Assembly (NCBI RefSeq): GCF_009646095.1
Contig: NZ_CP045725.1
Location: forward strand, 434,001 to 498,000
Origin: Raineyella fluvialis
Lineage (GTDB): Bacteria; Actinomycetota; Actinomycetes; Propionibacteriales; Propionibacteriaceae
Reading direction: 5' to 3'
Length of the DNA: 64,000 bases
Shown: in pieces, positions 14,490 through 55,656 of the stretch
How the letters are laid out: each line of letters begins with the position of its first letter
Numbering within the stretch: position 1 is the first letter of the stretch
Translations under genes and position numbers: made by a program
Notes under the pieces: model-generated
What the model was told of the DNA's origin: nothing
What the model saw: the letters and a program-made list of their open reading frames with translations, nothing else
Database searches by the model: none

Positions 14490-17400
14490 TCACACTCCCC
14501 CGCGGGGGATCGAGAGCGCTCCGTATCCACCACCGCCCGGAGTCTCGATCACCAGGCTGTCGCCCGGTCCGACCTCGGTCGAGTCGCACCCGGCGAGCTC
14601 GACGACCGTGCCATCGGCTCGCTCCACGGAGTTGTGTCCCAGCGCCCCGGGTGACCCACCCGCCATGCCGTACGGGGCCACCCGGCGATGACCGGACAAC
14701 GTACTCACGACCATGGGCTCGGTGAACTCGAGTCGACGCACGCCGCCGTCACCGCCCCGCCATCGTCCAGCACCACCACTGCCGCGCCGGATCGCGAACT
14801 CCCGCAGCAGCACGGGAAAGCGCCATTCGAGGACTTCGGGATCGGTGAGACGCGAGTTGGTCATGTGGGTCTGTACGACGGACGCCCCGTCGAATCCCTC
14901 CCCGGCGCCGGACCCCGACCCGAGCGTCTCGTAGTACTGGTGCCGCGCGTTGCCGAAGGTGACGTTGTTCATCGTGCCGGACCCCTCCGCCTGGACACCG
15001 AGCGCGGCGTACAGCGCACCGGTGATGGCCTGGGACGTCTCGACATTGCCGGCAACGACCGCGGCCGGGTACGTCGGCGCGAGCATCGACCCGGCCGGGA
15101 TGACGATGTGCAGCGGGCGCAGACAGCCGTCGTTCAGGGGGATCTCGTCGGCGATCAGCGTCCGGAACACGTACAGCACGGCGGCGGTCACCACCGACGA
15201 CGGCGCGTTGCCGTTGGTGTCCAGCTGGGGCGAGGTCCCGGTGAAGTCGATCGTGGCGCTGCGGTCGGCGCGGTCGACGCTGACACGTACGGCGATCGTC
15301 GCGCCGGAATCCATCAGGTAGCGGTGGTCGCCGTCCTCGAGCCTGTCGATGACGCGGCGTACGGCTTCCTCCGCGTTGTCCTGGACGTGGCGCATATAAG
15401 CCTGCACGACGTCCAGGCCGAAGTGGTCGATCATCGTACGGACCTCGTCGACGCCCTTCTGGTTGGCGGCGATCTGGGCACGTAGATCCGCGAGGTTGGC
15501 CTCGGGATTGCGTGACGGGAAGGAAGCTTCGAGGAGCAGGCGGCGCGTGGCCTCCTCGCGGAAGTGTCCGTCCTCGGCCAGCAGCCAGTTGTCGAACAGC
15601 ACCCCTTCCTGGTGGATCTCGTGACTGTCAGCGGGCATCGATCCGGGGGTCATCCCGCCGATCTCGGCGTGGTGCCCGCGCGAGGCGACGAAGAACAGCA
15701 GGTGCTCGCCCGCATCGTCGAAGACCGGGGTCACCACGGTGATGTCGGGCAGGTGGGTGCCACCGTGGTAGGGGTCGTTGACCGCGTACACGTCACCGGG
15801 CCGCATCGCCGTGCCGCGACGGCGGATGACCTCCTTCACGGTGGTGCCCATCGAGCCGAGATGGACCGGGATGTGCGGGGCGTTCGCCACCAGGTCGCCG
15901 TCCGGATCGAACAGCGCGCAGGAGAAGTCGAGCCGCTCGCGGATGTTCACCGACTGCGCGGTCGCCTCCAGCCGGAAGCCCATCTGTTCGGCGATCGACA
16001 TGAAGAGGTTGTTGAAGATCTCCAGCAGGACGGGATCGGCCTCGGTCCCCGCCTCGGGCTGCGCGGGCGCCACCACGCGTTCGACGATCAGGTGTCCCGA
16101 CCGGGTGAGCGTCGCCCGCCAGCCGGCGTCGACGACGGTGGTGGCGTTGGCTTCGGCGATGATCGCCGGCCCGGCCACCGTCTCCCCCGCCACCATCCGC
16201 TCCCGGTGACGCAGCGGCGCGTCGCGCCACGCCCCACCCAGGTGGACCCGAACGGTCGCCGGCGTGGCGTCGGCGGTCTCGGCGCTGTCGGCATCCGCAT
16301 CGGCGTCGGGGTCGCCGAGGTGGGAGAGGTCGGGTTGCTCGGTGAGGCCGGTCGCCTCCACCGAGACGGCTCCCGCGATCAGCGGACGCTCCATCAGGAA
16401 CGAGTACGTCGCGCGGTGGGCCACTTCGAACGCCGCGGTCATGGCGTCGAGCCCGGAGAGGTCGACCGGGATCGCGGTGTCGGTCCCGTCATAGCGCAGG
16501 TGGACCCGGCGAACCACCCGGATCCGATCCTCCGGGACTCCCTCGGCCAGGAGTTCGGCACGCGCGGCCTGCTCCAGCGAGTCCGCGACGGCCGCCAACC
16601 GTCCCAGAGCGGCGGGCTCGAGGCCGACCTCCACGGACTGTTCCCGCATCACGGTGGTGTCGGCCAGGCCGATGCCGAGCGCGGAGAGCACGCCGGCCAT
16701 CGGCGGGACGAGCACGGTGCGGATGCCGAGCGCATCGGCGACCGCGCAGGCATGCTGCCCGCCCGCGCCACCGAAGGTGGTCAGCACGTAGCGGGTGACG
16801 TCGTGTCCCTTCTGGACCGAGATCTTCTTGACCGCGTTGGCCATGTTTGCCACGGCGATCCGCAGGAATCCCTCGGCGACCTCCTCGGGAGTACGGTCGT
16901 CGCCGGTCGCCGTGCGGATGGCCGCGGCCAGCTCGGTGAAGCGACGTCGGACGATCTCGGCATCCAGCGGCCGGTCGCCGGTAGGACCGAACACCGCCGG
17001 GAAGTGCGCTGGCTGGATGCGACCGACCATCACGTTCGCGTCGGTCACCGTGAGCGGACCACCGCCGCGGTAACAGGCCGGGCCCGGAGCGGCTCCCGCC
17101 GAGTCCGGGCCGACCCGGTAGCGGCTGCCGTCGAAGTGCAGGATCGAGCCACCGCCAGCTGCCACCGTATGGATGTCCAGCATCGGGGCGCGCAGCCGCA
17201 CCCCGGCCACCTGCGTGGTGAACACCCGCTCGTACTCCCCGGCGTAGTGCGACACGTCCGTCGAGGTGCCGCCCATGTCGAACCCGATGACGTGGTCGTA
17301 TCCGGCCAGGGCCGACATCCGCACCATGCCGACGATCCCCCCGGCCGGCCCGGACAGGATCGCGTCCTTGCCACGGAAATGCCCCGCCTCCGCCAGCCCA

Positions 17401-18155
17401 CCGTTGGACTGCATGAACATCAGCCGTACGCCTCGCAGCTGGTCGGCGACCTGGTCCACGTACCGGCGCAGCACCGGGGACAGGTACGCGTCGACGACCG
17501 CGGTGTCGCCGCGCGGGACGAGCTTCATCAGCGGGCTGACCTCCGAGGACAGCGAGATCTGGTCGAAACCGACCTGCTCGGCGAGCGCACCGATCGCCCG
17601 CTCATGGGCCGGGTGGAGATAGCTGTGCAGGCACACCACCGCGACCGCACGGATCCCGTCGGCGTGGGCCTGACGCAGTTGGTCGCCCAACCGGTCGAGG
17701 TCCGGCGCCTGTAGCACCGTCCCCTGCGCGGTGACGCGTTCGTCGACCTCGACCACGCGCTCGTACAGCTGCTCGGGCAGGACGATGTGACGGTCGAAGA
17801 TGCGGGGACGGTTCTGGTAGCCGATGCGCAGCGCGTCGCCGAAACCGCGGGTGATCACCAGCAGGGTGCGCTCCCCCCTGCGCTCCAGCAGGGCATTCGT
17901 CGCCACGGTCGTCCCCATCCGCACCGCCTCTATGCGCACCGCCTCTATCCGGACCGCCTCCACCTGGGCGGCCGGCACCGGCGCGTCGTCGGGCGTCTCG
18001 AGCAGGGCACGGATCCCGGCGACGGCGGCGTCGCGGTACCGGCTCGGGTTCTCCGACAGCAGCTTGGCCGTCACCAGACGCCCATCGGGCCGACGCGCGA
18101 CGATGTCGGTGAACGTCCCGCCCCGGTCGATCCAGAACTCCCACCCCGCACTCAT
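14490..18155 (-). CDS. Fused hydantoinase A/B protein, 5-oxoprolinase type
   Basis: A 1221-residue protein with HyuA-type (about 1-680) and HyuB-type (about 700-1221) halves in one chain, the arrangement and length of ATP-dependent 5-oxoprolinase, which opens pyroglutamate to glutamate. ATP-fold motifs are [12 protein letters not shown] at the start and [12 protein letters not shown] midway; the B half shows [17 protein letters not shown] and ends with a GGGGYG motif. N-methylhydantoinase or acetone-carboxylase-like activity cannot be excluded. ATG 18155 is chosen because [13 protein letters not shown] matches the family start; an upstream in-frame ATG at 18221 adds 22 unrelated residues. Residues shortly before the conserved [15 protein letters not shown] contain a triplicated IEAVR. 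It converges on the flavoprotein gene. Confidence 0.88.
17921..17965 (-). repeat. Tandem triplication, 15-bp unit, inside oxoprolinase gene
   Basis: Three 15-bp units (GCACCGCCTCTATGC and two variants) at 17921, 17936 and 17951. Read on the minus strand they encode EAVRI three times, just before the conserved [11 protein letters not shown] block. Confidence 0.85.
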
Positions 18156-18254
18156 GCACCCATCGTCACACCCGACACGGCCCGCGCGGACGTCGCGGCG
18201 ATTTTCGAGGGGCGTGGACAATTACTGTGCGCGCGAAAGACGGGAGCAGGTGTG

Positions 18255-26871: not shown

Positions 26872-29514
26872 TCACGCGGTGACCGTCTGCAGGTCGTACT
26901 CCTCGGCCCTCTCCACCAGGGTGCTGCGGAGGAAGTCCGCCGCCGCGAGACGCTGCTCCACGCACCGGAACACCGCGCCGGAGAGCAGGAACGCGTCGTG
27001 GGTCATCCCGTCGAAGCGCTCCACGCTCGTCTCCACCCCTGCGGCGAGGAGCTGTTCGGCGAACTGCTCGGCCTCGTCGCGCAGCGTGTCGTACTCACTG
27101 GCGAGGATCAGGGTCGGCGGCAGACCGGTCAGGTCGGCGGCGTCGAGGGCGAGCCGCGGGTCGGCCACCTCCTCGGGACCGTTGAGGTACTGCGCGCCGA
27201 ACCACGCCAGGTCGGCCAGTTCGATCACGTACCCCTCGGCGTACTCCCGCCGCGATGCGGTGTCGGCGACAGGGTTGATCAGGGGGTTCACCAGCAACAG
27301 GGCCGACAGCTCCGGTCCTTCCTGCTGCGCCCGGATCGCCGCGGCAGCCGCGAGCAGCCCACCGGCGGAGTCACCGGCGATCCCGAGCCGGCCGGGGTCG
27401 CCCCCGTACGCCTCGATGTTGGCCGCGGTCCAGGCGAGGGCGGCGTACGCGTCGTCGTGGGCGGCCGGGAAGCGATGTTCGGGAGCGCGACGATAGGTCG
27501 GGGCGACCACCATGACACCCGCCCGCGAGGCCAGGTCACGGGCCGGCTCGTCGACCACCTCAATGCTGCCGGTGACAAAGCCGCCGCCGTGCACGTAGAC
27601 CAGCACCGGGAACGGTCCCTCGCCCTCGGGCACGAAGATCCGCAAGTGCTGCTCGGGATCAGCGCCGTACGACCGGTCGATCACCGCCCCGACCTCCTTG
27701 CGCGGCGCCTGCAGGTCCACGAAGCCCTCGACGGCGGCGCGGCTGCCCTCCACACCGGCGTTCGGGAAGCCGGTGAAGCCCTGCGCCCGCAGCGCCTCCA
27801 CGATGAACATCAGGCAGGGGTCGAGCGCCGGCGAGGAGGTGGCGGCCGCCAGCCCTGCGCTCGTGGCGGCGAAGGCGAAGCCGCGGTAGTCGTTGCGCTG
27901 CACGTTGTCACAGATGGCCCGGTAGCGCGGGGCGCCACCGAGGTAGACCAGCACCCGGCGGGGCTTGCCCGGGATGTTGGCACCCATGTACCAGGACGAG
28001 GCGGACTCGGGGAGCAGGGTGAACTCGCACAGCGCGTTCGTCTCCGCCACCCACTGCTCCTGGGCCTGCGCGGTGGCCTCCATCACGGCGTGCCCATGCT
28101 CCTTCATGTACGCGATCGCGTCGCCGATGAAGTCGATGTGGTCCTCGATGGCCAGCGGCATGTTGTAGAGCACCGAGGGGCTCTGCGGACCGGTCACGGC
28201 GAAGAAGTTCGGGAAGCCGGCCATCGTCAGCCCGAGGTAGGTCTGCGGGCCGTCAGCCCACTCGTCGGCCAGCGTCACCCCGCCGCGGCCGGTGACGTTC
28301 ATCGCGAGCAGCGGTCCGGTGCAGGCGTCGAAGCCGGTCGCGAGGATCAGTACGTCGAACGCGTACTCGGTGCCGTCGGACAGCCGCAGGCCGGTGGGTG
28401 TGACGGCCGCGATCGGGTTCGACTTCACGTCCACCAGGTGGGTGGACGGGCGGTTGTACGCCTCGTAGTAGTCGATCTCCAGCGGCGGGCGCTTGGTGCC
28501 GTACGGGTAGTCGGTCGGCGAGAGCAGCTCGGCCGTCGCCGGGTCGACCACGCGCTGCCGGATCTTCTCGCGGATGTAGTCCGCGGCGGTGTCGTTCGCC
28601 TCCTTGTTGCTCAGGATGTCCCCGAAGGAGTCGATGAAGAAGCGGAAGCCGCCCTTGTTCCACCGATCGTCGAAGACTTCCCGGCGCTCCTCGGGCGAGG
28701 CCGCCAGCGCGGACGGCTGGACGTCGGCGTACGGGACGCCGAGGAAGTGGTTCCGCGAGGCCTGGCGCAGCTCGGCGTAGCGCGCCTTGTCCGCCGCCTC
28801 TTCGACGGGGTCGGTCGGGTGGTTGCCGATCGGGGTGGCGTAGTTGGGGGTGCGCTGGAAGACGAAGAGTTCCTCGGCGAGCTTGCTGATCGTGCTGATC
28901 GCCTGGATGCCCGACGAACCGACGCCGATGATGCCGATGCGCTTGCCCGCCAGGTCGTGGTCCTCGCGCCAGTTACCGGTCAGCAGCACCTCGCCCGCGA
29001 AGTTCTCGATGCCGGGGAACTCGGGGGTCTTCGGCACCGAGAGGGTGCCCGCGCCGGAGACGAACCAGCGGGCGGTGTGCGTCTCGCCCTTGTCGGTGGT
29101 GACGCGCCAGTGACTGGCCTCCTCGTCCCAACTCACCGCGACCACGCGGGTGCCGAACCGGAAGCTGCGCCGGACGTCGTAGCGGTCGGCGCAGTGGTTG
29201 AGGTAGCGCAGGATCTCCGGCTGGGCGGCGAACTTCTCGGTCCAGTGCCACTCCTGCTGCAACTGCGGGTCGAAGGAGTAGGAGTAGTGCACGCTCTCGA
29301 TGTCGACCCGCGCACCCGGGTAGCGGTTCCAGTACCAGGTGCCGCCGACGTCGTCGGCGGCGTCGAAGCCGAGGACGTCCAGCCCCATCTGGTCGCGGAA
29401 CGTGTGGACGCCGTAAATACCGGCGAAGCCGGCCCCGACGATGATGACGTCGTGGTCGGCGCTTGCGGTGCGCCCGGAGGCGGTGGTACGGCCGGTGGCC
29501 TGGCGATCGGTCAT
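26872..29514 (-). CDS. Baeyer-Villiger monooxygenase - HSL esterase fusion
   Basis: One 880-residue chain with two complete enzymes. Residues 20 to about 545 are a type I Baeyer-Villiger monooxygenase: FAD motif GAGFAG (27-32), GGTWYWNRYPGARVD (57-71) and NADPH motif GVGSSG (197-202). The fingerprint FxGxxxHxxxW is present as FAGEVLLTGNW (172-182) with Leu in place of the central His. Residues 605-870 are an HSL-type alpha/beta hydrolase: oxyanion motif HGGGF (642-646), nucleophile Ser716 in GDSAG, Asp809 and His839. The first half would turn a ketone into an ester or lactone and the second hydrolyse it. ATG 29514 has AAAGGGA; a longer start adds 25 unrelated residues. A LuxR-type regulator gene lies just upstream on the same strand. 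Confidence 0.92.
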   Translation of the reverse strand: MTDRQATGRTTASGRTASADHDVIIVGAGFAGIYGVHTFRDQMGLDVLGFDAADDVGGTWYWNRYPGARVDIESVHYSYSFDPQLQQEWHWTEKFAAQPEILRYLNHCADRYDVRRSFRFGTRVVAVSWDEEASHWRVTTDKGETHTARWFVSGAGTLSVPKTPEFPGIENFAGEVLLTGNWREDHDLAGKRIGIIGVGSSGIQAISTISKLAEELFVFQRTPNYATPIGNHPTDPVEEAADKARYAELRQASRNHFLGVPYADVQPSALAASPEERREVFDDRWNKGGFRFFIDSFGDILSNKEANDTAADYIREKIRQRVVDPATAELLSPTDYPYGTKRPPLEIDYYEAYNRPSTHLVDVKSNPIAAVTPTGLRLSDGTEYAFDVLILATGFDACTGPLLAMNVTGRGGVTLADEWADGPQTYLGLTMAGFPNFFAVTGPQSPSVLYNMPLAIEDHIDFIGDAIAYMKEHGHAVMEATAQAQEQWVAETNALCEFTLLPESASSWYMGANIPGKPRRVLVYLGGAPRYRAICDNVQRNDYRGFAFAATSAGLAAATSSPALDPCLMFIVEALRAQGFTGFPNAGVEGSRAAVEGFVDLQAPRKEVGAVIDRSYGADPEQHLRIFVPEGEGPFPVLVYVHGGGFVTGSIEVVDEPARDLASRAGVMVVAPTYRRAPEHRFPAAHDDAYAALAWTAANIEAYGGDPGRLGIAGDSAGGLLAAAAAIRAQQEGPELSALLLVNPLINPVADTASRREYAEGYVIELADLAWFGAQYLNGPEEVADPRLALDAADLTGLPPTLILASEYDTLRDEAEQFAEQLLAAGVETSVERFDGMTHDAFLLSGAVFRCVEQRLAAADFLRSTLVERAEEYDLQTVTA

Positions 29515-29589: not shown

Positions 29590-29603
29590 GCGTAGAACTA
29601 CGC
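29590..29603. promoter_or_regulatory. Palindrome GCGTAG-AA-CTACGC upstream of the monooxygenase-esterase gene
   Basis: Perfect 6-bp arms around AA, 76 nt upstream of the fusion gene start, in the 105-bp gap after the regulator gene. It is a plausible site for the adjacent LuxR-type protein. Confidence 0.55.
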
Positions 29604-29619
29604 CATCACCCCGGCACGG

Positions 29620-31904
29620 CTACGTGTCCGCCGGCAGCGTGCCCGTCGTCCCGGCGCTCGGGTGGTCGCGGTGCCAGGCCGGCACCTCGGCGCGGGAGGA
29701 CAGGCCCAGCTTGGTGAGGATCCGCTGGACGTGGCCCTCCACCGTCCGGGGGACACGACGAGGTCCTCGGCGATCGCCTTGTTGCTCTGGCCCTCCAGCA
29801 GGCGCCGATAGACCTCGTTCTCCCGTGGGGAGAGCCCCGCGATCGCCACCGGAGCGGCCGTGGGATCCGCGTCGCCCGCCAGCAGGTCGAGACCCAAGCG
29901 CACCGCGGCGAGCTTGCTCGAGGCGGGACGCCGGTCGTCGGGGCGTACGGCGGGGGTCCAGCGTGCGGCTTCCGCGGCCAAGTGGGGGCCGAACGCCTCG
30001 ACCCGGGTGCCGAGCAGCGCCCACACCTGCTCGGCGGCCGCCGCGGCCCGGCCGGCTTCGTCGGGACGGGCCTGCTTGCCGCGGATCCACGCGATCAGCA
30101 GCAGGACGAGCGCGATGCAGATGCCGTCCTCGAAGGACCGCTGGATCCGCAGGGCCTCCGCGGCCGCCTGCTCGGCGCGGTCGAACCGGCCCAGGTGCCA
30201 CTCGCACACACCGGTGACCCATTCCGCGTAGGCCCGGTCCCACAGCTCGCCGCGCGGCAGGCCGATCGCCATCTCGCGTCGGCAGGTGTCCAGTGCCTCC
30301 CCGTGGCGTCCGAGGTAGGTCTGCGCCATCGCCAACTGGAACAGCGCGGTCTGTGCGGCCGCCTGTTCGCCGGCGTCGAGGAAGACGGGGATGCAGCGCA
30401 GGTAGCCGGCGACGGCCTGCTCCAACTCGCCGCCGAACATCTGCAGCAGGGCACCGTACGAGTCGAGGTAGGCGTGCAGCACCGGATCGGCCGCCCGAGC
30501 GGCGAGGTCCTGGGCCTCGGTCAGGTGGCGGGCCGCCACGTCCCGATCGCCCTGGATCAGGCACACCCAGGAGGCCACCGCCAGGACGTGACCCCGGCGG
30601 GCGGGCGACAGGCCCGCCAGGCCCAGGATCCGGTCGGCCCAGCGCCGGCCGTCGCTCAGCTGACCGCCCGCGATCCAGTGGTAGCGCAGCAGGCTGAACA
30701 GCTCCGCCGCCGCGTCGACCATCGCAGGGCGCGCCAGGGCCCACGCGAAGGCCGCCAGCAGTGTCGGGTGTTCGAGTCGCCAGATCGCCAGAGACTCCGC
30801 CTGCTCCGGACCGCACCAGTCCTCGACCATCTCCCGGCTGCGGGTCATGCAGAAGTCGAGGAGGTAGGCCATCGTCGCCTCGGTCTCGCCGCGCTGCGCC
30901 AGCAACGCCGCACCGTAGTCGCGCAGCGTGGCGAGCTGCCGGTAGCGGACCTGCTCACCGACCCGCTCCACCACGACGATCGACCGTTCCACCAGCCCGG
31001 CCAGCACGTCGAGCACCCGCTCCCGGGCCAGGTCGCCGTAGGCGCCCACCGCCTCCACGGCTTCGAGTCGGAACGACCCGGGAAAAACCGACAGTCGCGC
31101 CCACAGCGTCCGCTCCTCGTCGGAGCAGCGCTCGTAGCTCCAGTCGACCAGGGCACGCAGCGTCCGGTGCCGCTCGGGCCCCTGCGCGCTGCCGCCGGTG
31201 AGGACGGCGAACCGGTCGTCGAGACGCCGGTTCAGGTCGGCGACGGACAGCACCCTCAGTCGCAGCGCCGCCAGCTCGATCGCCAGCGGGATGCCATCGA
31301 GCCGGCGGCACAGGTGCCGTACGTCGTCGACGGAGGCCGCGGTGACCGTGAACTCCGGCACCAGCTGCCGGGCCCGGTCGACGAGCAGGCGGACGGACGG
31401 TGACCCCAGCAGCTCGTCCACCCCGCCGCTGTCGTCCGGCACCGCGAGCGGTGCCAGGTCGTAGAGGCACTCCCCCGGCACGTCAAGTCGTACGGTGCTG
31501 GTGGCGAGCACCGCCACGTTCGGGCAGGCGCGCAGCACGGCGACGACGAGGTCTCGGACCGCGTCGCGGACATGTTCGCAGTTGTCGACGTAGAGCACCT
31601 GGGCGCGCTCGCCCAGGTGGCCGATCACCTGGTCCTGGGCGGATCGCGCGGACTGCTCCGCCACGCGCAGGACGCGGGCGACCAAGGCTGCCACCTCGTC
31701 ACCGTCGCTGATCGTCGCGAGATCGATCGCGGCGATCGGGCGGCTCTCCCCCAGCAGGACCTGGCCGGCCAGGCTGGTCTTGCCCAGGCCGCCGGGCCCA
31801 CTGATCGTCACGAGGCGATGTCCGGCGAGGAGGTCGGCGACCGCGCGTACGTCCGACTCCCGCCCGACGAAGCTCGTCAGCCGCGGGGCGAGCAACTCGG
31901 TCAT
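29620..31904 (-). CDS. LuxR-type transcriptional regulator with NB-ARC-like ATPase, frameshifted at 3' end
   Basis: About 761 residues after correction. The N-terminal signalling ATPase has FVGRESDV and Walker A GPGGLGKT (36-43), with VLYVDNCEHV as Walker B; a long helical-repeat region follows; and LSPRENEVYRRLLEGQSNKAIAEDL begins a C-terminal LuxR DNA-binding domain. At a run of five G (29748-29752) the frame shifts. Restoring one base gives VVSPRTVEGHVQRILTKLGLSS, a textbook LuxR recognition helix, and a stop at 29620-29622. Large ATPase regulators of this kind activate transcription when an inducer binds. It sits directly upstream of the monooxygenase-esterase gene, which it probably controls. 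ATG 31904. Confidence 0.87.
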
Positions 31905-51473: not shown

Positions 51474-53219
51474 ATGACTGTGACCACTGACGTCCTCATC
51501 GCCGGCGCCGGCCCCGTGGGCCTGACCCTGGCGAACTTCCTCGGCAAGTACGGCGTGCGTGCGATCGTCGTCGAGCAGCTGCCCTCGCTGATCGACTACC
51601 CCCGCGGTGTCGGCCTGGACGACGAGTCGTTCCGTACGATCCAGTCCCTCGGCCTGGCCGAGGAGGTGCTCCCCTTCACCGTCCCCCAGCACGTGATGCG
51701 GCTGGTCAACGGCCACGGCGACGTCATCCTCACCAACGATCCCAAGGGCGAGCCGTACGGCTGGACCCGCAAGCACGGCTTCCTCCAGCCCGAGGTCGAC
51801 AACGCCCTGTACGAGGGCCTGGCCCGTTACCAGGGTGTCGAGGTGCGTTTCGCCCACACCCTCACCGACATCGCTGAGGACGCCGACAGCGTCACGGCCA
51901 CGGTCGAGCACACGCTCGAGGACGGCAGCACCGAGACCTTCGAGATCGTGGCGAAGTACCTGGTCGGCTGTGAGGGCGGCAAGTCCCCGACCCGCAAGTG
52001 GATGGGCGTGAACTTCGAGGGGAAGTCCCCGTCCACCCGCTGGGTCGTCGTCGACGTGAACAACGACCCGCTGGGCACGCCGAACGTCTACCTGGGCGCC
52101 GACCCCGCCCGTCCGTACGTCTCCATCGGCCTGCCGCACGCCGTGCGTCGCTGGGAGTTCATGCTCTTCGACGACGAGCCGTCGGAGAAGGTCGAGGACG
52201 ACGCGTTCGTCGCCGAACTGCTCAAGGACCACGTCCCCGACTCCACCAAGCTCGATGTCATCCGCCGACGCGTCTTCACCCACCATGGCCGGATCGCCTC
52301 GTCGTTCCGTAAGGGCCGGGTGCTGATCGCCGGCGACGCCGCGCACCTGATGCCGGTGTGGATGGGCCAGGGCTGGAACTCCGGCGTCCGCGACGCCACC
52401 AACCTCGGCTGGAAGCTCGCCTCGGTACTCAAGGGCCACAGCGACGACCGGCTGCTCGACACGTACACCACCGAGCGCACCGACCACGCCAAGGCGATGA
52501 TCGACCTGTCGATGACGTTCGGTTCCATCATCAAGCCGACCGACCGGAAGATCGCCTTCCTCCGCGACACCGCCGCCTCGGCGATGAACGTGCTGCCGCA
52601 GGTGAAGGAGTACTTCACCGACATGAAGTTCAAGCCCATCCCGCGCTACTCCAGCGGCGTCGTCGTCGACCAGAAGACGCTGGCCCCGGGCCGCGCGGAT
52701 GCCAAGGTCGGCGGCGGACGGTTCATCCCCTTCCGCAACACCGTCGAGAAGAACTCCCCGGTCGGCCTGCAGATCATCCAGCCGCGGGTCAACACGGCGA
52801 CGGCGACGAACGTACGACTCGACGACGTGATGGGCGACTGGTGGACCATCGCCGCCTGGGGCAACGACCCGACCCGGCTGCTCGACCCCGAGGACGTCAA
52901 GCTCTTCCGTCGTCTCGGCGGCACCTTCGTCACCTTCATCTCCGAGACCCAGCGGCCGTGGGCCGAGCAGGAGTTCGGCTACTCGTCGACCGTCGTCGGC
53001 GACACCACCAACGCACTGAAGACGTGGTTCGACGTGCGCTCCGTCGGCGCGGTGATCCTGCGTCCCGACCACTTCGTCGCCGCCGCCTGCCTGGCCCAGG
53101 ACCTGCCGAAGGCCTTCCACGCCACACTGGAGGCCGCTCACGCCACCCTGGCGACCGTCTCCTCGGCCACCCCGACGGCGCCGGTCGAGACCACCCCGAG
53201 CACCACCGCGAGGGCCTGA
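51474..53219 (+). CDS. mhpA: 3-(3-hydroxyphenyl)propionate hydroxylase-like FAD monooxygenase
   Basis: A 581-residue class A flavoprotein hydroxylase. The FAD motif GAGPVG is at residues 11-16. The DG-type motif reads VGCEGGKSPTRKWMG, with Glu-Gly for the usual Asp-Gly. GDAAHLMPVWMGQGWNSGVRD closely follows MhpA. The enzyme would add a hydroxyl next to the existing one on 3-hydroxyphenylpropionate or 3-hydroxycinnamate, using NADH and O2. The product is the substrate of the MhpB-like enzyme encoded 3 nt downstream, which supports the call. The C-terminal ~30 residues are Thr/Ala-rich and not conserved. AAGGAGT precedes ATG 51474. Confidence 0.9.
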   Translation: MTVTTDVLIAGAGPVGLTLANFLGKYGVRAIVVEQLPSLIDYPRGVGLDDESFRTIQSLGLAEEVLPFTVPQHVMRLVNGHGDVILTNDPKGEPYGWTRKHGFLQPEVDNALYEGLARYQGVEVRFAHTLTDIAEDADSVTATVEHTLEDGSTETFEIVAKYLVGCEGGKSPTRKWMGVNFEGKSPSTRWVVVDVNNDPLGTPNVYLGADPARPYVSIGLPHAVRRWEFMLFDDEPSEKVEDDAFVAELLKDHVPDSTKLDVIRRRVFTHHGRIASSFRKGRVLIAGDAAHLMPVWMGQGWNSGVRDATNLGWKLASVLKGHSDDRLLDTYTTERTDHAKAMIDLSMTFGSIIKPTDRKIAFLRDTAASAMNVLPQVKEYFTDMKFKPIPRYSSGVVVDQKTLAPGRADAKVGGGRFIPFRNTVEKNSPVGLQIIQPRVNTATATNVRLDDVMGDWWTIAAWGNDPTRLLDPEDVKLFRRLGGTFVTFISETQRPWAEQEFGYSSTVVGDTTNALKTWFDVRSVGAVILRPDHFVAAACLAQDLPKAFHATLEAAHATLATVSSATPTAPVETTPSTTARA

Positions 53220-53222
53220 ACC

Positions 53223-54161
53223 ATGTCGCTGTCCCTGCTGTGCATGTCGCACACGCCGCTGATGGGGTTCAACGACCCCGGCGCCGAGACGCGTGCCGAC
53301 GTCGATGCGCTGTTCGACCGGGCCCGGGCCTTCGTCGAGGAGGTCGACCCGACCCTGGTCGTGTCGTTCGGCCCGGATCACTACAACGGCTTCTTCTACG
53401 AGCTGATGCCGCCCTTCGCGATCTGCTACGCGGGTCGCGGGGTCGGGGACTTCGACACGGCCGCTGACCCTTTCACGGTTCCCGAGGAGATCGCGGCGGG
53501 GATGGCGCAGTACGCCGCTGACGCCGGGATCGACATGACGATCAGCCGTGGGGCCGAGCTGGACCACGGCGCGGTGCAGATCCCCGAGCTGGTGCTCGGC
53601 GGCCTGGACCGCTACCCGACCGTGCCGGTCTTCGTGAACGGTGTCGCGGAGCCCTTCGTCCCGATGAGCCGGATCCGGCAGATGGGTGAGGCCCTCGGCC
53701 GCTACCTCGCCGGTCTCGACGAGCGGGTGCTGCTGATCGGCTCCGGCGGGCTGTCCCATGATCCGCCGGTGCCGCGCTGGGCCGAGGCGACCGAAGCACA
53801 GCGGGCGTTCCTGCTCAACGCCCGTCACCCGACGCCGGAGGCCCGGGCCGCGCGCCAGGAGAGGACCATCAGCACCGGTCTGGCCTTCGCCGCCGGTGAG
53901 GCCACGATCCAGGACCTCAACCCGGAGTGGGACAACGCGTTCCTCGACGTGGCCGCCTCCGGGCGGGTCGAGGACTTCGACAGCTACACCGCGGCGCAGA
54001 TGACCCTCGACGCCGGGCACTCGAGCCACGAGGTCCGCTGCTGGGTCGCCGCCGCCGCGGCGATGCGCGCCGCCGGACCGTACGTGGTCCGGGAGCGCTA
54101 CTACCGCGCGATCCCCGAGTGGATCGCCGGCTTCGGCGCCCTGTTCGCCACCACTGCCTGA
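53223..54161 (+). CDS. mhpB: 2,3-dihydroxyphenylpropionate 1,2-dioxygenase
   Basis: A 312-residue class III (LigB-type) extradiol dioxygenase matching MhpB along its whole length: CMSHTPLMGFNDPG near the start, FGPDHYNGFFYELMPPF, GAELDHGAVQ, IGSGGLSHDPPVP and the closing YYRAIPEWIAGFGALFA. It opens the ring of 2,3-dihydroxyphenylpropionate between carbons 1 and 2 with Fe(II). The metal and base His residues (SHTP, DHYNG, DHG, LSHD) are all present. It follows the hydroxylase gene by 3 nt. The next steps of the classical pathway (MhpC hydrolase, hydratase, aldolase) are not encoded in this window. Confidence 0.93.
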   Translation: MSLSLLCMSHTPLMGFNDPGAETRADVDALFDRARAFVEEVDPTLVVSFGPDHYNGFFYELMPPFAICYAGRGVGDFDTAADPFTVPEEIAAGMAQYAADAGIDMTISRGAELDHGAVQIPELVLGGLDRYPTVPVFVNGVAEPFVPMSRIRQMGEALGRYLAGLDERVLLIGSGGLSHDPPVPRWAEATEAQRAFLLNARHPTPEARAARQERTISTGLAFAAGEATIQDLNPEWDNAFLDVAASGRVEDFDSYTAAQMTLDAGHSSHEVRCWVAAAAAMRAAGPYVVRERYYRAIPEWIAGFGALFATTA

Positions 54162-54213
54162 CACACCTCACGCCTGACACACCTACCGCCTGACACACCT
54201 ACCGCCTGACACC
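54156..54213 (+). repeat. Tandem repeat, 16-bp unit x3.6, after mhpB
   Basis: GCCTGACACACCTCAC followed by two exact copies of GCCTGACACACCTACC and a partial fourth. The first unit includes the mhpB stop codon, and each unit repeats TGA. It fills part of the gap before the transporter gene. There are no spacers, so it is not a CRISPR array. Confidence 0.92.
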
Positions 54214-54300
54214 CCCCACCCGACCCCCCAGACGACAACGCAGTCCACCCCCGTGGCCCGGCCCAGAAACCCGGGCCACGGAGATCCTGAGGAGCCACTC

Positions 54301-55656
54301 ATGTCCACCGCCATCCCGTCGACGACGACCGGCGCCACCGGTTCGTCCGGCCAGTCCTTCCGCGCCCGTGCGTCGAGCTTCATCGGCTCGGCCGTTGAGT
54401 ACTACGACTTCCTGCTCTACGGCGCGGCCGCCGGCCTCGTCTTCCCCAAGCTGTTCTTCGCGAACCTCGATCCGGCGCTCGGCACCACGCTGTCGTACGT
54501 CATCCTCTTCACCGGCTACGCGGCGCGTCCGCTGGGCGGTCTGCTCTTCGGGCACTACGGCGACAAGTTCGGCCGCAAGCGGATGCTCTTCATCACCCTG
54601 CTGGTGATGGGCCTGGTCTCGATCTCCATCGGCCTGATGCCGGGCTCGGCGATGATCGGGGCGGCGGCGCCGATCATCCTCGTGGTCCTGCGGGTCATCC
54701 AGGGCATCGCTGTCGGCGGTGAATGGGCCGGCGCCACGCTGATGTCGATGGAGCACTCGAAGCAGGGATCGAAGGGTCTCGGCGCCTCGCTCGCCGTCGC
54801 CGGTGCCCCGATGGGCGCGGTGCTCGCCACCCTGGTGCTCGCGCTCTTCTCCGGCCGCCATGACTTCATCGTCACGGACGCCTGGTGGGCCTCCTGGCGC
54901 ATCCCGTTCCTGCTGTCCTTCGTCGTCGTGCTGGTCGGCCTCTACCTGCGCTCGCAGATCCACGAGTCGCCGGAGTTCGAGGAGGCCCGTCGCCGCGGCG
55001 AGGTGCACACCAACGTCCCGATCGTCGAGATGTGGACGAAGTACCGCAAGGAGGTCGTCCTCGGCACGCTGGCCGTCGGCGCCCCGCTCTTCCTTCAGGG
55101 CCTGCTGGCCGTCTGGGCAGTGCCGTACGTCGTCGCCGGCCACGCCGTCTCCCGGCAGGACGCGCTGATGATGCTCACGCTCTCCAACGCGTTGCACGTG
55201 TTCGCCATCCCGGCCTCGGCGTGGCTGTCGGACCGCCTCGGCCGTCGCCCGGTGATGATCGGTGGGGCGATCCTGTCCGCGGTGGGCCTGTGGGGGATGT
55301 TCGCCCTGTTCAACACGAACCAGCCGGTGCTGATCGCCCTCGCCTTCATCGTCGGCAACCCGATCCTGCAGGCCTCCATGTACGGCCCGATCGGCGCCTT
55401 CCTCGGCGAGAAGTTCGACGCCAACGCCCGCTACACCGGCGTCTCGCTGACCTACCAGTTCGGCTCGCTCATCGGTGGTGGCCTCGCCCCGCTGATCGCC
55501 GACCAGTTTGTCCGCCACCCCGGCCAGACGCAGAACCTGGCGCTCTACATGTCGGTCTTCTACGTGATCAGCGGCATCGCGGTGCTGCTGTCGCGGGAGA
55601 CGCGGCACAAGCAGACCCACGCGGAGCGCTTTATCGAGGCGAACCTGGTGGACTGA
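54301..55656 (+). CDS. MHS-type MFS transporter, probably for the mhp substrate
   Basis: A 451-residue major facilitator of the metabolite:H+ symporter group (ShiA, ProP and related): SAVEYYDFLLYGAAAGLVFPKLFF in helix 1, RPLGGLLFGHYGDKFGRKRML in the loop between helices 2 and 3, and GIAVGGEWAGATLMSMEH in helix 4 are its signatures. About 12 helices. It follows mhpA and mhpB on the same strand and would import the phenylpropanoid acid. TGAGGAG precedes ATG 54301. A 16-bp tandem repeat lies in the 139-bp gap to mhpB. Confidence 0.9.
   Translation: MSTAIPSTTTGATGSSGQSFRARASSFIGSAVEYYDFLLYGAAAGLVFPKLFFANLDPALGTTLSYVILFTGYAARPLGGLLFGHYGDKFGRKRMLFITLLVMGLVSISIGLMPGSAMIGAAAPIILVVLRVIQGIAVGGEWAGATLMSMEHSKQGSKGLGASLAVAGAPMGAVLATLVLALFSGRHDFIVTDAWWASWRIPFLLSFVVVLVGLYLRSQIHESPEFEEARRRGEVHTNVPIVEMWTKYRKEVVLGTLAVGAPLFLQGLLAVWAVPYVVAGHAVSRQDALMMLTLSNALHVFAIPASAWLSDRLGRRPVMIGGAILSAVGLWGMFALFNTNQPVLIALAFIVGNPILQASMYGPIGAFLGEKFDANARYTGVSLTYQFGSLIGGGLAPLIADQFVRHPGQTQNLALYMSVFYVISGIAVLLSRETRHKQTHAERFIEANLVD

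Follow-up and report, generated by a model that had tools for sequence, protein, structure and literature searches.

A predicted Baeyer-Villiger monooxygenase-esterase fusion protein of Raineyella fluvialis with a divergent fingerprint motif, and its fused and unfused relatives

The closest described counterpart of the system considered here is found in Rhodococcus rhodochrous GD02, where the genes acpA, for a Baeyer-Villiger monooxygenase (BVMO) resembling phenylacetone monooxygenase (PAMO; AcpA 55% to PAMO), and acpB, for an NlhH-like esterase, are induced on acetophenone together with pheAB and catABC, the two enzymes being proposed to act in sequence ahead of a phenol hydroxylase and the catechol pathway (PMC9618137; this and the other papers cited by PMC number are drawn on here from parts of their text). 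The GD02 pathway was inferred from transcriptomics, and its authors say that AcpA still awaits expression and characterisation (PMC9618137). In GD02 these are two separate genes, whereas in the stretch of the Raineyella fluvialis genome analysed in this work (contig NZ_CP045725.1, positions 434,001 to 498,000, viz. 64,000 nucleotides, referred to as the window) a single gene encodes both a BVMO-like monooxygenase and an esterase of the hormone-sensitive lipase (HSL) type (Table 1). By analogy, acpA/acpB can be regarded as the nearest functional model for this fusion, and the pair of an acetophenone monooxygenase and a phenyl acetate esterase is a closer analogue than the monooxygenase and lactonase of cyclohexanone pathways, with which a first-pass annotation of this DNA had compared it. 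We consider that the encoded protein is quite probably a bifunctional catabolic enzyme, which oxidises a ketone (possibly an aryl one) to an ester and cleaves the latter into an acid plus an alcohol or phenol. The N-terminal NADPH-/FAD-dependent half, as a homologue of PAMO and steroid monooxygenase (STMO) in which the catalytic residues are retained, would put one oxygen atom next to the ketone carbonyl, giving an ester, which the C-terminal serine esterase half, in view of its complete triad, its oxyanion motif and the gene association, would hydrolyse.

Table 1. Positions of the fusion gene, its parts and other features in the window (residue numbers refer to the fusion protein).
Feature	Coordinates	Strand	Basis or remark
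Fusion gene, BVMO-like monooxygenase + HSL-type esterase	26872..29514	minus	ATG at 29514, stop ends 26872; 880 aa, single open frame
BVMO-like half, residues 20-548	27871..29457	minus	phmmer to STMO/PAMO; predicted fold
First Rossmann motif GAGFAG (27-32), FAD site	29419..29436	minus	sequence
GGTWYWNRYPGARVD (57-71), BVMO motif [AG]GxWxxxx[FY]P[GM]xxxD; D71 = PAMO D66	29302..29346	minus	alignment
Divergent fingerprint FAGEVLLTGNWR (172-183); Leu178 at PAMO H173 position	28966..29001	minus	alignment
Second Rossmann motif GVGSSG (197-202), NADPH site	28909..28926	minus	sequence, alignment
K341-R342, equivalents of PAMO K336-R337, invariant in alignments	28489..28494	minus	PAMO alignment
Linker, residues 549-562 (~14 residues)	27829..27870	minus	matches stop + spacer + start of unfused pairs
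HSL-type (Abhydrolase_3) esterase half, residues 563-865	26920..27828	minus	Pfam, NCBIfam
STAND/TPR/LuxR-type regulator gene	29598..31904	minus	neighbour clustering, Pfam, open reading frames
MhpA-like 3-(3-hydroxyphenyl)propionate hydroxylase + MhpB-like gene	51474-54161		MhpA-like: 734 bits, cut-off 853
3-carboxyethylcatechol 2,3-dioxygenase (MhpB-like)			424 bits, cut-off 291

The continuous 880-residue frame with both domains reported by the first-pass annotation, which gave no strand, is present and lies on the minus strand, with the stretch AAGAAAGGG upstream of its ATG. The plus strand over the same coordinates is also open, in an open reading frame (ORF) of 865 amino acids. However, this plus-strand reading of 26872-29514 is a shadow ORF, as the minus frame has a strong third-position GC bias (third- minus second-position GC, gc3-gc2, 0.46) and the nearest relatives are 83-84% identical to the 880-aa protein over near its full length. 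Pfam places an FMO-like domain at residues 22-222 and Abhydrolase_3 at residues 638-842 (E 1e-62) of this one chain, and in the window no stop or frame break intervenes between them. In sequence comparisons with the PDB, STMO (4ap3) matches the span 12-548 (E 2.5e-175), PAMO (1w4x) the span 8-547 (E 2.9e-171) and esterases the span ~561-865, and among the PDB matches listed (60 of 305) each spans one half only. For the window protein versus six relatives, dN/dS was 0.21-0.37 for the BVMO half and 0.17-0.47 for the esterase half, values which are rough because of the simple counting method and the GC-rich DNA, and both halves are under purifying selection.

The monooxygenase half shares its fold and catalytic residues with PAMO and STMO, to which it is 49.9% and 51.4% identical over 523 and 525 aligned residues, whereas these solved chains (542-549 residues) lack an esterase part and have the fingerprint His discussed below. 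An AlphaFold2 model built from 25 fused sequences has a mean predicted local distance difference test score (pLDDT) of 85.1 and a predicted template-modelling score (pTM) of 0.84, with values below 50 in the segments 1-16, 157-159, 504-518 and 872-880. Its monooxygenase half is matched by Foldseek to PAMO (2ylw) with a target-normalised TM score of 0.95 and 49% identity, i.e. the type I BVMO fold, and every one of the 50 Foldseek matches listed concerns this half. Both Rossmann motifs GxGxx[GA] of type I BVMOs are present, and GGTWYWNRYPGARVD conforms to the type I BVMO motif [AG]GxWxxxx[FY]P[GM]xxxD as defined in PMC6058054. R342 and D71 align with PAMO R337 and D66, and the equivalents of PAMO D66, K336, R337, R217, T218 and W501 are all kept in the window protein; they are retained in nearly all other rows of the alignment, the exceptions being Tyr for W501 in two Actinomadura and Ser for T218 in the locus L035. 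We take these PAMO residues to be those of the active site, and R342, as the R337 equivalent, presumably has the role of the catalytic Arg. However, the strict fingerprint FxGxxxHxxxW[P/D] is not found, as FAGEVLLTGNWR has Leu178 in place of the His and Arg183 in place of P/D. Due to this, the description of this half as a full type I BVMO is upheld only in part: the Rossmann motifs and the GGTWYWNRYPGARVD block stand, but the His of the type-defining motif is missing. Judged from its sequence, the half should be described as PAMO/STMO-like with a divergent fingerprint, and not filed as a type I BVMO by the strict motif, and it probably works as a BVMO.

The esterase half has the features of an HSL-type serine esterase, viz. 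Abhydrolase_3, the HGGG oxyanion motif (HGGGF, 642-646), the G-x-S-A-G nucleophile (GDSAG with Ser716), Asp809 and His839, and the complete alpha/beta hydrolase that had been annotated is thus confirmed. The triad is conserved in 33 of 33 aligned rows and HGGG in 32 of them. LipP1 (NF058653) and Est8 (4ypv) share Abhydrolase_3, HGGG, GDSAG, Asp and His with it, but they are free-standing enzymes, and the fusion esterase scores 273 bits against the LipP1 equivalog, below the curated cut-off of 350. The linker is short, as had been stated, but its span was placed too widely at about 545-605, since esterase homology begins at residue 563, from where the sequence aligns with the N-termini of free-standing esterases (MPLDPAV and similar). 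At the junction, the fused proteins of the group containing the window protein (clade A, see below) show a conserved Gly, then ~14-16 variable residues and then LDP; the linker is of identical length in 11 of 11 clade-A rows and variable in sequence (dN/dS 0.20-1.1 over 14 codons). In the AlphaFold2 model, ten-residue blocks around the linker have pLDDT values of 86-92.

A scan of a genome collection identified 12 loci with a near end-to-end match, at 63-83% identity (best segment). Six of these carry the fusion in a single frame (Raineyella, Granulicoccus, two Actinomadura, a Mycobacterium and Quadrisphaera), and one (Nocardioides, L014/L042) is a fusion whose BVMO part is interrupted by a frame change, with the esterase still attached to what is left of the BVMO. 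In the other five (L009-L013: Prauserella, two Amycolatopsis, Mycobacterium SM1 and Pseudonocardia) the genes are unfused neighbours, in agreement with the statement that the two activities are normally encoded separately: the BVMO gene ends in TGA and is followed by a short purine-rich spacer and the ATG of an esterase starting MPLDPAV or similar. The fused and unfused forms thus differ only by a linker versus a stop, spacer and start. As this comparison shows, the fusion has a short linker in the place where two adjacent genes are separated by a stop codon, spacer and start; the direction of the change (fusion or later splitting) is inferred. In whole-genome searches of samples that overlap with one another, a full-length fusion was found in 4 of 147 genomes of the family, including 3 of the 4 listed for the window's genus; 7 of 394 genomes of the class passed E 1e-190 (5 fused, 1 separate, viz. 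genome G527, and 1 broken, G191), as did 7 of 245 of the order (6 fused, including one that a contig end truncates, and 1 broken) and 20 of 148 of the genus of G489 (19 fused, 1 unfused). The junction of this last unfused member is identical to that of Mycobacterium SM1. Among plasmids, 24 of 725 matched records contain a single site that covers 80% of the query, and of those matched in one piece and inspected (H1, H3 and H6), H1 (Bradyrhizobium) is a fusion, and H3 (Nocardia farcinica) and H6 (Roseomonas) have separate ORFs, both with the fingerprint His; none of 18 matched phage records reaches 80% coverage. With near-copies removed, the comparison covered 32 distinct fused sequences. The alignment excludes BVMO matches that span fewer than 400 residues of the query, as well as any row that is identical to a previous one across a single internal stretch; the L014/L042 pieces were used separately, the BVMO piece in the BVMO tree and the HSL piece in the HSL tree, and L044 is truncated by a contig end.

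The trees of the two halves are largely in agreement. In both, the fused proteins of the window group (A_fused), their unfused sisters and a second set of fusions (group C: the Bradyrhizobium plasmid and two genomes of the genus of G489) fall into one clade, with support of 99/95 for the BVMO part and 100/99 for the HSL part. A further 19 fused rows, 18 of them from one genus, form group B, which lies apart from A and C in the trees and has a different linker; the esterase motif is GWSAG in group B (GWSTG in one row), GDSAG in A and GESAG in C. Group B comprises L038-L041 and L048-L062, whose proteins are 41-45% identical to the window protein and carry Phe or Tyr where the fingerprint has His. 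A clade of A_fused plus C_fused that excludes the unfused members was rejected in both trees by the approximately unbiased (AU) test (p 0.003 and 0.0015; the groups tested were named after the trees had been seen), and fusion therefore either took place twice, or took place once and was later undone by splitting. Neither tree rejects a single clade of all fused and clade-A rows (AU p 0.305 and 0.28), and hence the independence of the group B fusion is likely, but not proven. The HSL tree requires at least 3 changes of fusion state as a whole, and at least 2 within A and C. A difference between the trees is that the unfused genes (G527 left aside) are one branch in the BVMO tree, whereas in the HSL tree Mycobacterium SM1 and G527 branch away from the other unfused genes.

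The fingerprint His position can be viewed in the light of these groups. Across 33 fused rows, inclusive of the broken L014 BVMO piece, it is occupied by Phe in 17, Leu in 10, Tyr in 2, His in 2, Met in 1 and Arg in 1; the six separate clade-A rows have Met (3), Leu (2) or Thr (1), and no His; and 24 other BVMO rows, including PAMO and STMO, have His in 21, Arg in 2 and Gln in 1. Loss of the His as a general consequence of fusion is rejected, as the fusions L046 and L047 retain it and unfused clade-A genes lack it; a test of His loss versus fusion on phylogenetically independent pairs (n=3) is powerless. The His is reported to be conserved across the BVMO, flavin-containing monooxygenase (FMO) and N-hydroxylating monooxygenase (NMO) groups (PMC7570161). 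However, divergence of the fingerprint is in itself nothing new, because the natural H173Q enzyme BVMOAf1 of Aspergillus fumigatus is active and the fully conserved motif is said to be missing in some rhodococcal BVMOs (PMC3762062). BVMOAf1 is also similar in that its BVMO is the N-terminal part of a two-domain protein (905 aa) with an active monooxygenase half, but its C-terminal domain is a putative polynucleotide synthase, not an esterase, and the BVMO was studied in truncated form (PMC3762062).

The gene neighbourhoods of 19 clade A and C loci bear upon the pathway. A homologue of the window's regulator neighbours the pair or fusion in 14 of the 19, with one gene in between in L077 and L078, and 6 group B loci yielded no member of this cluster. 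HpaB-like hydroxylase genes are near the pair or fusion in six (L008, L009, L010, L011, L034 and L085). In L008 a catechol 1,2-dioxygenase gene above the curated cut-off and an IclR-type gene are nearby, the IclR-type gene of L009 scores above the PcaR/PcaU/PobR cut-off, and the fusion on the Bradyrhizobium plasmid is near genes for a muconate cycloisomerase, an intradiol dioxygenase, a 4-hydroxyphenylacetate 3-hydroxylase-type protein and catC. G527 (L085, contig C18, 2875-10202) has a compact run BVMO-flavin reductase (HpaC-like)-HpaB-like-HSL with a divergent LuxR-type regulator, and this run is an unfused version of the system. In group C, L077 and L078 have a 3-carboxyethylcatechol 2,3-dioxygenase near the fusion, and L077 also an aldolase and an acetaldehyde dehydrogenase. 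Overall, the neighbours fit an acp-type pathway in L008 and L034, and partly in L009-L011 and L085. The phenol product would pass to an HpaB-type hydroxylase and then to ring cleavage in several of the related bacteria, where the gene association observed points to an acetophenone-type aryl alkyl ketone as the most likely substrate; this is less certain for the window's organism. The suggestion that the two reactions are consecutive, an ester being made and then opened, is strengthened by the G527 run and by the published acpAB acetophenone genes, and the conserved fusion and its unfused neighbours agree with it; for the window protein itself this function is predicted by homology.

Several observations weigh against this function. 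In the window protein the fingerprint His is Leu, and mutation of this His inactivated 4-hydroxyacetophenone monooxygenase (HAPMO) and weakened cyclohexanone monooxygenase (CHMO), as told in PMC3762062. No HpaB-like gene is present in the stretch examined (some stretches being short) in 13 of the 19 related loci, the HpaB-like protein of L008 (697 bits, cut-off 885) and its HpaC-like reductase are both below curated cut-offs, and the neighbourhoods of L003, L004, L079 and L080 show no clear pathway. The window's 3.65-Mb genome has no match to TIGR02310 (HpaB-2), TIGR02438 or PF00775 at E 0.001, due to which a phenol-catechol ortho route in this genome is not supported, and its MhpA/MhpB-like genes are 22 kb from the fusion. 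If BVMO activity was lost together with the His, then this half could be an NADPH oxidase or a sulfur/nitrogen oxygenase, with the esterase serving another step, and the non-His residue in 31 of 33 fused and 6 of 6 separate clade-A rows, versus His in 21 of 24 other BVMO rows, along with the damage to CHMO and HAPMO, would accord with this. However, we regard such a loss as unlikely, in view of the retention of the other PAMO active-site equivalents, the activity of the natural H173Q enzyme, the rhodococcal BVMOs said to lack the fully conserved motif (PMC3762062), the His still present in two fusions, the operon and neighbours of the relatives, which suit ketone catabolism, and the lack of power of the independent-pairs test (3 pairs).

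That a sequencing or assembly artefact has joined two genes is exceedingly improbable. Frame breaks do occur in the neighbouring regulator (~29744) and in the Nocardioides relative, but in-frame fusions with aligned linkers are present in assemblies of several genera and the window frame is unbroken, so that the absence of a frameshift between the halves, as first annotated, is borne out, and the fusion is not an artefact of this kind. The fusion could also be a neutral loss of the stop codon between co-transcribed genes, with the halves working as they do when separate and no benefit from joining. The drift of the linker sequence favours this, as does the existence of unfused relatives in which the same regulator is kept; it is nevertheless improbable given the constant length of the linker in 11 clade-A rows, the fused state in several genera with either two origins or a later loss, as the AU tests of A_fused + C_fused imply, and the further fused group B with its different linker and mostly GWSAG motif. 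A reverse order of reactions would have the esterase release an acid or alcohol from its ester substrate before the monooxygenase works on a carbonyl product. This is compatible with the fact that domain order does not fix reaction order, and HSL-type esterases are broad. However, this order has only a slight chance of being correct, as acpAB is proposed to act from ketone to ester to phenol, like the 4-hydroxyacetophenone pathway of Pseudomonas fluorescens ACB (PMC9618137), and the HpaB-like hydroxylase in the G527 run suits a phenol product.

With the ketone-to-ester-to-acid reading retained, each half, and their pairing as separate genes, are already known, and what is new is the natural fusion with a non-canonical fingerprint. 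No natural BVMO-esterase fusion was found in searches of open-licence papers, inclusive of the parts drawn on of PMC6058054, PMC10682829, PMC12250605, PMC9618137, PMC3762062 and PMC7570161, which is weak evidence of absence as most subscription papers are outside this scope; within it, the remark that no well-described fusion of this pair was known is not contradicted. Since the other active-site residues are kept while the His is not, this clade allows a test of the role of the class B fingerprint His. The use of BVMO reactions is limited by the build-up of ester or lactone and by product inhibition. Engineered BVMO fusions couple steps, e.g. alcohol dehydrogenase with CHMO, according to titles and abstracts, and the natural fusion and its unfused sister genes offer a ready comparison on whether the joining of consecutive enzymes helps. 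More tentatively, and with considerable doubt, we suggest a natural BVMO-esterase fusion family which arose at least two, perhaps three, times, in which the ester might pass from the flavin site to the serine esterase within one well-packed chain, and in which the supposedly essential BVMO fingerprint His is mostly replaced by a hydrophobic residue, product release or domain motion being perhaps tuned by contact with the esterase.

Some other features of the window and its genome can be mentioned. The window regulator has no match to the LuxR helix-turn-helix (HTH), which seems to continue in another frame after a break near 29744, whereas its Raineyella antarctica homologue has a LuxR-type HTH (GerE 702-752); the break reflects either a pseudogene or a sequencing error. 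FAD_binding_3 proteins are present in the genome, one of them the MhpA-like protein, whose gene is consecutive with those for the 3-carboxyethylcatechol 2,3-dioxygenase and an MFS-type transporter at 51474-55656 on the plus strand; the MhpA/MhpB-like genes may or may not be linked to the fusion. Lastly, a 1243-aa ORF is located at 14490-18221 on the minus strand, with a similar start at L080:13446, and its product is presumably a hydantoinase/oxoprolinase-type protein.

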